Shown: positions 44,940 through 51,547 of the stretch, piece by piece
Position numbering within the stretch: the first letter of the stretch is position 1
Layout of the letters: every line of letters begins with the position of its first letter
Translations under genes and position numbers: made by a program
The notes under the pieces: model-generated
What the model was told of the DNA's origin: nothing
The model's input: the letters and a program-made list of their open reading frames with translations, nothing else
Databases searched by the model: none
Assembly: GCF_000787575.1 (NCBI RefSeq)
Contig: NW_012236516.1
Span: forward strand, 399,081 to 463,080
DNA: 64,000 bases
Reading direction: 5' to 3'
DNA from: Acytostelium subglobosum LB1
Taxonomy: Eukaryota > Evosea > Eumycetozoa > Acytosteliales > Acytosteliaceae

Positions 44940-45237
44940 CTCATTGTATATTGGTATGTATGTACGTGTAATACAGATAGTAAGTATATGTAACTGTTTA
45001 AGATGTTAATGGATCAACTAAAGTAAACTGATCAACATTATAAATCTGGATCGAACTGATTTGTTTCCGTTTTTGGACCATCAACCGACTCTCTTTTTGA
45101 TCAACCACACACATCATTAAGAAACAGGACTTCCACGTTACACCATGAAGTTTATTAAGATCGGTCAATCAAATACAGGATAGTATATGTACAACAATGA
45201 ATAATGAATGAATGTTCATCCGGATGGTCAGGCTGGA
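44940..45237. other. Short intergenic region
   Basis: This is about 300 bp between the IBtk-like start and the heat-shock factor stop codon, both on the minus strand. It holds ordinary AT-rich sequence and nothing further was recognised. Confidence 0.5.
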
Positions 45238-47371: not shown

Positions 47372-48158
47372 TGTTGTAAATATTAAATTATTAATAGATT
47401 ATTAAATGTTAAGTAAGTATATAAATAATTAGTTTCCCGAAGATTGACTTGAGAATGGATTGTGATTGATTGATGAAGGGGTGGAAGGTTGTAGAACAAA
47501 CAAACAAATATAACTTTGAATATGTGACTCTTTGTTTGAATGAATGAATGATATACAGAGAGACAATCAATTATTCGAAATGATTCTCTACGACTGCTTG
47601 CTATTTAACATGGAAGCCAAGAATGGATTAAAAATAAGTCGTCGGACAATTGATGGGCCGCATAGTACACAGTTACTTACTTCCAAACTAGAGATGTGCT
47701 CAAGGGCAGCCCACCCGACCACCTCATTGACTGATGTTGATGAATCAGAGATGTCAATCCACGCGCTCTCGACCATTGTTGTTGACATAAGCACACCACG
47801 CAACCCCGAGCTTGAACCTTTTCAGATGGCTTCCATCTGCAACCCCCATTTAGGGTGGTAAAGCTTCCATACACCTAATCGCGTTGTGGAATGTTGTAGA
47901 AGGCTGTTCCTGAAACCACACAACCACACCACACCCAGGTCAAACGTCGAAATTTCAACGGAACTTCCCCGGAGGTGGACTACAACTCTCTCTCTAGCAA
48001 TAGTGATTGACATTGTTGACAGAGTCTACTTCTTGGAAGACAAGGGCACGGCAATGAATACCTCACCCCAAATCCACCAAAAACCAACAAAAAAAACAAT
48101 AATTAATCTAAATAATCAACAAAAAACAAAAACAATATTCATTAAAAACCTGGGTGGG
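47372..48158. other. Intergenic region with a degraded coding-like block
   Basis: This 790-bp stretch lies between the heat-shock factor start and the left end of the CACTA element. Roughly 47590-48060 has a more even base composition than the surrounding AT-rich DNA and gives open minus-strand pieces (47588-47803 and 47822-48013) that look coding-like but are interrupted; no family was recognised. From 48060 to 48158 it is A- and CAA-rich. Confidence 0.4.
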
Positions 48159-48173
48159 CACTACAGTCGCACT
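48159..48173 (+). repeat. Left terminal inverted repeat of the CACTA-like element
   Basis: This 15-bp sequence starting CACTACAGTC is an exact reverse complement of 51428-51442. Beyond 15 bp the two ends diverge. Confidence 0.9.
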
Positions 48174-48496
48174 AGAGGTTCTTCTACCTTCGATTAATCA
48201 TGGATTCCTAGTTTTGATATAAATCCATGGTTGTTCCATTGAATTAACTAATATATAAATCATATAATATATTCGTTGATATATTTAAGTATATATCCAA
48301 GGATAAATAAAGGATTAATCTATTAAACGGTGGGGTGCCCATTAATATAATTGGTAGATGTTAGTAACAGTGGGTTTAAATCAAATTGATTGATTGATAG
48401 GTGTGTGTAGTGTTAGTGTGAATATATATGTTAACACTTAAACAACCCATTCATAGATACATATTACTCTTAATAGTATAACACACACCAATAATA

Positions 48497-50905
48497 ATGA
48501 ATAAAAGAGTATTCTGTTGTTATATAGGTTGTCAAGACAGTGTCAAACCACTTGAGACTTTGGATAAGTTCATCAATCATTTTTGTCAACACAAAAAGAA
48601 GTGTTTGGCTTGTGGAGCCAGTATCCAACCAAAATCTTTGAAGGGTCACCTCAAAACATCAGTCCATTTGAATTCATTATGTAAATACATATTTTTGAAA
48701 CATACATATACACACACATTGCATTCTCAATCTCTAAAATATCTCTAACTTTATTATTATATAACAACAGGCAGAGATGAGGTAACGATCAAGTCTAGAC
48801 TCGGAGAGATATGTGGAAGTGAAGGAGCGATCAATTATGGATACTCTCTGTACCAGATTCACTTGTACAGTTTGAATGTTCAAGCTGAGACCCAACTACC
48901 CGAGACACCAGTGACCAACAACTCAATTGTTAGACAATTGGAGAGTGAGACTGCTGCCTTCTTTGTCGATCACCAAGATGTCGAGGCATATGACAGCGCT
49001 GTAGATGACTGCGCCAACATGTTGGACAATATGGTCATTCAACCCAATCAACGTGATATAGGTAGGTTGCAATGTAGACAGACTGACTCAGTGATAACAG
49101 AGACTTTGGTAGATGGCTTACTAACACTGTTACTTTATTTGACAGACCTAGAAAAAGTGATTAAGGTACTCTATCGAAACAATATATCCATCAGCACCTA
49201 TATGAAGATCGACAAGGTTATCCGTCAGATCGATTCAAACAACATCAAAGACTTTAAGAGGAGAGAGGCTTGTATGTTGAAGAAGTTGTCACCAGTAAGT
49301 ACTTGACCAATCAATCAAACAAGACTCAATCACTCAACTAACACAATATAAACACATGCAGGAGGTCAAGATACTGGATATCAATCACAAGAGTGGTCCT
49401 ATCAAGTACAACCTCTATTACTTTGACCCAATAGACTACATTGGATTGTTCTTGGATAGGTTCTTTGATCACATGGTCTGGCGATACACTGAGCCTTCAG
49501 GGTAATTATTAAATAACCATTCAACAAACAATCAGATAACAATTACTAACTATTATGTATATATAATATATATATAGTGACAATAGCGTAATATACAGTA
49601 CCTTTATCAACTCTGGACTATTCAAAAAGTACAATCATATCGATGTCATTGCGATCGAACTCTTTATTGATGGTTGGGAGTCTGGAAACCACTCTACACT
49701 TGTTGGTAAGGATGCTTTCAATGCTGATCATATCGACGTTAACAATCTAACAGAGAGACCATCAATNATATTGCATGCAGGAGTGTATATGACTATACTC
49801 AACCTCCATCCTGCCATCGAGAAATACTTTGTAAAGAACAGAGTATTGGTGGCTTTGATACCCAAGGTAGTTGACAAGCACATGGCCATGCACATGATCC
49901 TCGAGAGCTTGAGAAACACACAACAAGTAAGTAGTGACATCAACTATCCCGCCATCGTATTCACTCACTAATATATATAATATAGACTGGCATCCAACAT
50001 AGTGGCAAGGTTCTTTATCCTCGTCTGATGAGGATAGTAGCAGACTCACCAGAGGCATACTCACTGTTGTGTTTCAACTCATACACCAGTTCCAGTCCTT
50101 GCCGATTTTGTGAATTACCTTTGGCAATGATAGTATCGACCGAACCATCTTACCACCCTCGTGAGTGGAGCAAGGTTATCGATTACCACAATGATTACTC
50201 TGATGCACTGCAGCATGGCACCCTCGATTCGAGAACACAAGAGTTCAAGACTCGTTGCGAGAAGCTTGCCATCCATTATCAACATCCTTGTAAGTATATG
50301 TATGATTGATTGATTGATTGATTGAATAGAGTGAGGTAGTGTGGACAAGCAAGCAACATCAATCATTAGAGACTAACACACAACCTTTAGCATTCCTTCT
50401 ATATTTAGATATCGACCCTGTCGTTCAAATACCCCTAGAGATGATGCATGTTGAAACACTGGGTAAGTCAACGATCAGACAATTACTATATTGCATGCAT
50501 ATGAACTAACATGTTAATATCTTGAATGACAGGCAATATGAAGCGTGAGCTCATCATGGTGTTTGGTGGACTAGACACGCAACAGTGGGTGAAAGTACAT
50601 CGGAGGTATAGCTTGCTCAAAGGATCACTACGTTTGGCCTATCTTGAAAGTTTCGTCGCCAGAGAGATCACTCAATTGTCCATGTGTAGTCTCTATCTCC
50701 TCCGTGATCTTATATCTGAAGAACAATACAACTGTTTAAAGACACACACAAGGTAATGTCTCAAGGAACACTGCTCTAGGTTATCAATGCTAACCAACTA
50801 TTTCTCATTATAATTAGATACTACTTCATGCTCCACCAGGATAGACTCGGTGACTACAAAGAATTTCTTGAACTCTGTCATCAAAAGGAAGATCTCCGAG
50901 TTTGA
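48497..50905 (+). CDS. Transposase-like protein of the CACTA-like element (598 aa)
   Basis: Exons are 48497-48680, 48771-49061, 49146-49294, 49362-49501, 49578-49926, 49986-50289, 50391-50462, 50533-50752 and 50818-50905. All are GT-AG and frame is kept at each junction. Residues 1-60 have paired Cys and His (FCCYIGC, HFCQHKKKCLACG, HLKTSVHL), probably a DNA-binding zinc region. The core has LFIDGWESGNHSTLVGKD with a candidate first catalytic Asp, then TILNLHPAIEKYF and VLVALIPK, positions where Tnp2/Plavaka-type transposases carry comparable segments. SSPCRFCEL is a CxxC insert. IPLEMMHVETLGNMKREL matches the P-x-D/E-x-M-H-x(3)-L-G motif common to this transposase group. It ends KEDLRV. A second open frame running to 51041 could give an alternative C-terminus. 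Base 49767 is N but leaves the frame intact. Confidence 0.78.
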
Positions 50906-51427
50906 GATGTATTATTTGTTGTACCAAATCCAATTCACCAAGAACAGAAGATCTCATCAACCTCGTCCAGTGTCTGAACCGACAATGAATGTACAAGTGG
51001 CAGATGGACGACAAATGCGATTTGTCTTAATAGATAGATAATAACAAGGTAGTAATGATCAAAGAATTAAATAATAATGTTTAGAACTATAGATATATGA
51101 TTCTTTAATAAGAGTAAACTATAAGTTTAATTATTATTTTAATAAAGAAAAATATTTAAATTTGAATTTTGGCACCTTTTAGAGCTGTTATTAGATGTGT
51201 TAATCACAATTGCCATTAACATCTCTGATGTTAATGACCAGGAGTGTGAATCAATCAATTTGTCATCGAGTTGATAACCATTGGCATTAACACTTTTAGT
51301 GGATATATCTTATAATTTATCTTTGAATATATATCTCCATATTATTTATTAGATAAATCTGACCTTCACATATCTAGTGATTAATCACCTGTAGGTACCT
51401 GGATTTATCCACGATAATATCCATCCA

Positions 51428-51442
51428 AGTGCGACTGTAGTG
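51428..51442 (-). repeat. Right terminal inverted repeat of the CACTA-like element
   Basis: This is the exact reverse complement of 48159-48173, ending in TAGTG. The 500 bp between the transposase stop and this end is AT-rich and noncoding, with short TTAAC/GTTAA and GATAAAT motifs that also occur near the left end. Confidence 0.9.
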
Positions 51443-51547
51443 GGTCAGGTCAGCCCAGCAACATTTTCGACATTGTCATCCTCCACACAACAAAACAACA
51501 AGCAACACTTCTGAATACACATTCAGTGGCGGTTGAAAGATAAGATC

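Follow-up and report, generated by a model that had tools for sequence, protein, structure and literature searches.

Is the CACTA-bounded sequence that lies between two host genes of Acytostelium subglobosum LB1 a complete transposon with an unusually short transposase, or is it what is left of a longer one? The window (the whole stretch of DNA that was analyzed, 64 kb, C40:399081–463080 of the assembly) has a G+C content of 44.1%, and the genome that was searched for relatives of the element comprises 30.73 Mb in 56 contigs; 30.9 Mb, 106 supercontigs and an A+T content of 55% are given for this genome in PMC4334915. The element, which a preliminary description had taken to be an apparently whole CACTA-like DNA transposon, is 3,284 bp long (48159–51442) and intergenic, with an HSF-type gene (PF00447, E 8.5e-23, minus strand) on one side and a FNIP-repeat gene on the other, the ATG of the latter being located 106 bases past the right end of the element. 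Its ends and flanks are made up as follows:

48157–48158, no strand: left flank GG, possible 2-bp target-site duplication
48159–48173, plus strand: left terminal inverted repeat (TIR), CACTACAGTCGCACT, 15 bp, perfect; homology to contig C48 begins on the same base
48192–48199, no strand: subterminal palindrome GATTAATC, repeated at 48313–48320 and 51379–51386 and absent from the gene core
51428–51442, minus strand: right TIR, reading AGTGCGACTGTAGTG on the plus strand, perfect; homology to contig C9 stops on the same base
51443–51444, no strand: right flank GG, possible 2-bp target-site duplication

As stand-alone evidence we rejected the 15-bp repeat: in 60 first-order Markov simulations of the 64-kb window, perfect inverted 15-mers at a spacing of 1–6 kb arose with a mean of 0.78 and a maximum of 6, so that one such pair is within chance expectation for 64 kb. 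(Another perfect inverted repeat in the window, 16 bp long [TACAACAATGAATAAT] and found at 45190 and 47364, is consistent with chance.) Places in the genome that matched the 15-mer with two or fewer mismatches numbered 47, versus 98 for a backward control, and an exact match on C44 was taken as chance, sitting as it does in CAGTCG-rich repetitive DNA devoid of element sequence. What makes the inverted repeat convincing is that the homology of other copies starts or stops exactly on its terminal base. Searching the genome with the element DNA yielded 13 matches, namely the window itself, C9, C48, C54, and nine short ones, the last all falling on query bases 2117–2186, in an intron rich in GATTGATT. 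The match on C48 (61684–61778) corresponds to element bases 1–94 at 92%, beginning on the first base of the TIR, and the match on C9 (8391–8995) corresponds to the right 605 bp at 99%, running to the last base of the TIR and then diverging, with outer flanks that differ from those in the window. The perfect 15-bp ends starting with CACTA, as originally described, are in this way backed by the copies on C9 and C48: the termini, CACTA..TAGTG, conform to the CAC..GTG of the CACTA/EnSpm type and are common to the right end on C9 and (with one mismatch) the left end on C48. The palindrome GATTAATC near both ends is suggestive only as a subterminal feature. On C54, element bases 5–47 are matched at 95%; this 43-bp left-end fragment (L004, 1501–1543) stands beside a terminus that is missing three bases of the inverted repeat and is possibly a small deletion remnant.

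We refer to the family of the window element as family A and to a related transposase gene elsewhere in the genome as family C. Between the ends of the window element, nine exons splice to exactly 598 residues when position 50391 is used as the acceptor of exon 7, which reproduces the gene model proposed earlier together with its motifs (DGW, CxxC, and P-x-E-x-M-H-x(3)-L-G). An alternative acceptor at 50409 gives 592 residues; we favor the 598-residue model because family C has AFLLSF at that place. One ambiguous base, at 49767, lies inside the gene, and the exons are these:

48497–48680, plus strand: exon 1, with the N-terminal Cys-rich motif KKCLACG (counterpart in family C, KKCLWCG)
48771–49061, plus strand: exon 2, from the splice model
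49146–49294, plus strand: exon 3, from the splice model
49362–49501, plus strand: exon 4, from the splice model
49578–49926, plus strand: exon 5, with the first candidate catalytic Asp in IDGWESG (49666–49686); DG..SGN is kept in family C
49986–50289, plus strand: exon 6, with the second candidate Asp in VADSPEA (50037–50057) and the CRFC knuckle (50100–50111), kept in family C
50391–50462, plus strand: exon 7, preferred acceptor 50391, alternative 50409; the PLEMMH..LG motif continues into exon 8
50533–50752, plus strand: exon 8, from the splice model
50818–50839, plus strand: native part of exon 9, ending ..YYFMLHQ, with residue 577 as the last native residue of the transposase

In residue numbering, IDGWESG occupies positions 285–291, CRFC positions 410–413, and PLEMMHVETLG positions 487–497; the two candidate Asp residues are D286 and D391. 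That residue 577 is the last native one became evident from the copy on C9. The 15 bp with which the native reading ends in the window (TTCATGCTCCACCAG) are also present at C9:5902–5916, where the gene continues: C9:5902–6771 encodes 235 residues, of which the 230 that follow the shared FMLHQ are the missing C-terminus of the transposase. Farther downstream, C9:7390–8596 is the coding region of a second protein, and in the window it is DNA of the last exon of this second gene that comes after the junction:

50838–50839, no strand: deletion junction, with a 2-bp microhomology (AG), at which the equivalent of C9:5916 is joined to C9:8393
50840–51041, plus strand: relic of the last exon of the second gene, corresponding to C9:8393–8596, which yields residues 578–598 and the stop codon at 50903–50905

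Relative to C9, then, the window is without 2,476 bp. The DNA that encodes the last 21 residues of the window protein (578–598, which are not native to the transposase) belongs on C9 to the last exon of the second gene, where the frame reaches a stop after 62 residues. The first six of these residues (DRLGDY) are in the reading frame of the second gene, after which a two-base difference from C9 shifts the frame and leads to the stop at 50903–50905; splicing to another acceptor, located at the junction, would instead yield a 630-residue fusion to the tail of the second protein. Both TIR-bounded ends are retained and internal coding DNA is lost in comparison with a longer copy, which is the structure of an internal-deletion derivative. 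Lost with that DNA is a conserved Y/F-E-S-K-N, the E of which (the E of ESKN) we infer to be a candidate third catalytic acid. The element had been called apparently whole, yet comparison with C9 shows that 2,476 bp are gone, and with them the C-terminal 230 residues of the transposase (candidate catalytic E included) and the greater part of the second gene.

The longer copy is visible in its right part only: C9:1–5114 reads N, and at C9:5901/5902 the family A sequence is interrupted by the adjoining end of a family B element (..ATTTGTAGTG), so that the size of a full-length element has to be inferred from a pair of incomplete copies. For exons 1–8, the window was the sole family A match among the matches listed (eight of nine were the window and the ninth was family C), and none of these matches, whose counts are lower bounds, revealed an intact family A element in the assembly. 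Over the 605-bp right end, the window and C9 differ by two substitutions and two two-base indels, and because they differ by no more than this, the two copies probably separated recently.

An independent gauge of what a full-length transposase looks like is provided by family C, a gene on the minus strand at C9:9954–13543 (L010, 54–3643) for which a hand-assisted splice model gives 956 amino acids. Residues 230–577 of the window protein align with family C at 22% identity, the alignment ending at residue 577 of the window protein and residue 689 of family C; the BLOSUM45 score was 264, as compared with a mean of 58 (s.d. 8, maximum 93) for 300 shuffles. The first 105 residues of the family A piece on C9 align from residue 685 of family C onward at 27% identity, with a score of 146 against a shuffled mean of 49 (s.d. 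6, maximum 71; 300 shuffles), and the rest of the C-terminus, with an LLFP shared near the end, was aligned by MAFFT only. The half in the window and the half on C9 therefore meet, collinearly, at one point of an uninterrupted family C protein. Kept in both families are DG..SGN, D.P, TS..PCR.C, H.E.LG, INFHL..HW, and ESKN, and INFHL..HW and ESKN lie wholly inside the part that the window has lost. We found no convincing TIRs around family C. Its genome matches numbered 15, the strong ones all on C9; those elsewhere were weak, among them the window at E 0.0033 and a short match on C52 at E 2.3e-4.

Direct observation covers both ends, another (partial) copy, the segment that was lost and the junction left in its place, and a full-length relative that is collinear. 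From these we conclude that the window element is very probably a non-autonomous, internally deleted form of a ~5.8-kb CACTA-like cut-and-paste transposon. The contrary idea, that it is a complete one-gene transposon with a naturally short 598-amino-acid transposase and that C9 is a composite carrying extra genes, can appeal to two intact ends and to a gene that splices to 598 residues without internal stops. It is nonetheless highly improbable: the protein breaks off partway through a region that runs on collinearly both on C9 and in the independent family C, and its last 21 residues are encoded by DNA that on C9 belongs to the last exon of another gene.

Might the junction at 50838 instead be an error of assembly, with the locus in reality holding a longer element? 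C9 is short and its first 5,114 bases are N, and repeats are prone to misassembly, but no N is found near the junction and a false join at a 2-bp identity is improbable. Moreover, the right ends in the window and on C9 differ by the substitutions and indels noted above and the outer flanks also differ, which marks them as separate copies. We regard such an error as very unlikely.

A third alternative is that the locus is a host gene, that is, a domesticated transposase or a truncated repressor that has been kept by selection. Exons 1–8 are at one place among the matches listed, the splice sites are GT-AG and the frame is open, the N-terminal Cys-rich region is kept, and the deletion fuses the two genes with the frame maintained over six residues, with the 630-residue fusion as a further potential product. 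Yet the gene lies exactly between intact TIRs, the copy looks young, so that its open frame requires no selection, and no relative was found in a protein collection that included other dictyostelids, as searched by exact five-residue words. A host function is accordingly very unlikely to account for the locus. On the reading that we prefer, that of a deletion copy of a transposon, the window copy's own protein should be inactive because the candidate third catalytic acid is missing, and it is possible that the truncated N-terminal protein has a candidate role as a repressor.

To what kind of transposon does the deletion copy belong? The sole Pfam match of the window protein was to Plavaka (PF18759; E 0.0047), which at 16.6 bits is below the cut-off of 26.3; it spans residues 356–468 of the 592-residue model, the part with the second D and the CxxC. 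PF02992 (EnSpm) gave no match at E values up to 10 with the window protein, family C, or the C9 piece, and family C had no relevant Pfam match, PF18759 included. The second protein matched nothing convincing in Pfam (Terminase_2, E 0.044). Scanning the genome by frame with PF18759 returned nothing, but the scan missed even the window gene and gave a below-cut-off signal in one of 14 control genomes; scanning with PF02992 also returned nothing, and none of the 14 control genomes matched it either, which makes both scans uninformative. When families A and C were compared with known proteins, in searches that reach only relatives having exact five-residue words in common with the query, there was no hit at E ≤ 0.01 (0 of 5,569 and 0 of 6,019 candidates, respectively). 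A control query, a FNIP protein encoded in the window, had 92 matches at E ≤ 0.001, with several dictyostelids among them and a best identity of 35%; the window's own FNIP protein was absent from these matches, and the absence of the transposase there is therefore uninformative as to annotation. Searches of PDB sequences returned nothing credible (best E 0.25 and 0.13), and a scan of viral contigs with the C-terminal piece from C9 returned no relative.

The candidate D..D..E assignment comes from two families and from motifs of known transposases: the D, D and CxxC are kept in both families, and the E is present on C9 and in family C and absent from the window copy; a strict H(3–4)H was not seen, only one conserved H. 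We place the element in or near CACTA/EnSpm-Plavaka because of its ends, the D..D..CxxC..H order, and the sub-threshold Plavaka match, and membership of EnSpm is likely, as far as protein and terminal sequence can tell. Of the original assignment, the CACTA ends and (by sequence only) the DDE-type transposase stand, and the wholeness does not. The supposition that a short transposase marks a Tnp2/Plavaka side branch was a wrong inference, the shortness being the result of truncation, even though a weak, sub-threshold Plavaka match does exist; profile placement, which had been proposed as a check, gave only this match and none to PF02992.

Known systems offer several points of comparison. The En/Spm element has dSpm deletion derivatives, and the internal-deletion form is ordinary for CACTA elements; TnpA is a DNA-binding accessory protein of En/Spm that acts beside TnpD. 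Like CACTA/EnSpm elements, family A has CACTA starts and CAC..GTG termini, two same-strand genes (in the C9 copy), the candidate order D, D, CxxC, H, E, and an internally deleted copy with both ends in the manner of dSpm; unlike them, the window element has neither a match to PF02992 nor a perfect 3-bp target duplication. According to PMC12730594, CAC..GTG ends with 3-bp duplications are consistent with EnSpm, Plavaka transposases resemble those of EnSpm (both with C(2)C and H(3–4)H between D2 and E), and Plavaka ends are TGT..ACA or CATCA..TGATG, with 2-bp duplications also occurring. The window element resembles the Plavaka elements of fungi in its sole, sub-threshold Pfam match and in a possible 2-bp duplication, whereas its termini are CACTA..TAGTG rather than either Plavaka form. 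Flanking duplications of 2–3 bp had been anticipated, and the flanks are perfect at 2 bp (GG/GG) and have one mismatch at 3 bp (GGG vs. GGT); at the window they fit a 2-bp duplication better than one of 3 bp. In SmTRC1, 2-bp direct repeats flank seven of the 14 copies analyzed (PMC1636069), and the GG/GG of the window is similar to the 2-bp repeats of SmTRC1 and related members of the CACTA superfamily, likened here by description only, which are elements of Schistosoma and other species. The search for further copies that had been suggested turned up a second, partial one on C9 and no empty site in this genome: a query made of the joined flanks matched the locus itself only (two of two matches).

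Family B also has CACTA-type ends. Its copy on C25 (L056, 492–5254) is 4,763 bp long, has 17-bp perfect inverted ends (CACTACAAATTATCCGC), and is apparently inserted in the open reading frame of a host gene. The flanks are perfect at 2 bp (AC/AC) and have one mismatch at 3 bp (AAC/ACC); of the removals tried (0, 2, and 3 bp), only 0 or 3 keeps the frame open across the joined host flanks. A copy on C47 has neither a 2-bp nor a 3-bp duplication. The internal frame on C25 encodes 704 amino acids with a weak, sub-threshold match to Agenet (E 0.012), and when compared with the genome it gave 21 rows at E ≤ 0.001, representing several copies and fragments: strong on C25, C34, C9, C35, C47, and C44, with one short match on C54, and weak (32–36% identity) on C19, C41, C48, C50, C7, and C36. 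The family B end on C9 (5115–5901) adjoins the transposase gene of family A directly, at a distance of 15 bp from the deletion point of the window copy, and was also matched on C25 (95%), on C47 (70%), and, over 94–95 bases, twice on C53 (75%). On C53 (L054, L055), two matching CACTACAAATAGTCTGCAC ends are ~19 kb apart and belong to elements that would extend away from each other, and there is a further end of the CACTACAAAT type. A tentative idea, which we consider possible and somewhat doubtful, is that families A and C, and perhaps B, whose ends are CACTACAAATT, establish a divergent lineage of amoebozoan elements that falls between EnSpm and Plavaka. Its marks would be termini in CACTA, duplications of 2 bp, a Cys-rich finger at the N-terminus, and, beyond the candidate catalytic E, a C-terminal domain that ends in the shared LLFP.

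Dictyostelids have other DNA transposons, of which Tdd-4/Tdd-5 and Sola2 differ from family A in the type of transposase and the length of the duplication, respectively. The transposase of Tdd-4 and Tdd-5 is described as similar to Gypsy integrase (PMC2836005), DDT-A and DDT-S are listed as putative DNA transposons (PMC4559204), and Sola2-Fanzor elements are reported from D. fasciculatum and P. pallidum, Sola2 having 4-bp AT-rich duplications (PMC3627910; CACTA and EnSpm go unmentioned in the passages of that paper drawn on here). For A. subglobosum itself, Table 1 of PMC4334915 counts one DNA transposon, and the features of the genome are described there as rather static. Among the papers listed by a literature survey, most of them judged by title and the opening of the abstract, none describes CACTA elements in dictyostelids.

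The history of the locus might be reconstructed as follows. The full element would be ~5.8 kb (3,284 + 2,476 bp, from the two partial copies) with CACTACAGTCGCACT ends and two same-strand genes, one for a transposase of ~807 residues and the other for a protein of ~340–350 residues that may be a DNA-binding accessory, comparable to TnpA beside TnpD. The transposase, acting on the ends, would mobilize the element, and interrupted repair or end joining would have removed the 2,476 bp, probably recently. Having both ends, the window copy could still be moved, in trans only.

Family A is a new family of a known kind of transposon, seen through a defective copy. The genome of A. subglobosum contains two or more families whose ends are of the CACTA type, one of which is represented by a young deletion copy, and in addition a transposase related to one of these families. 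Comparing the copies identifies the lost portion of the protein, and, if the classification is true, an amoebozoan sample would be added to the EnSpm-Plavaka group.
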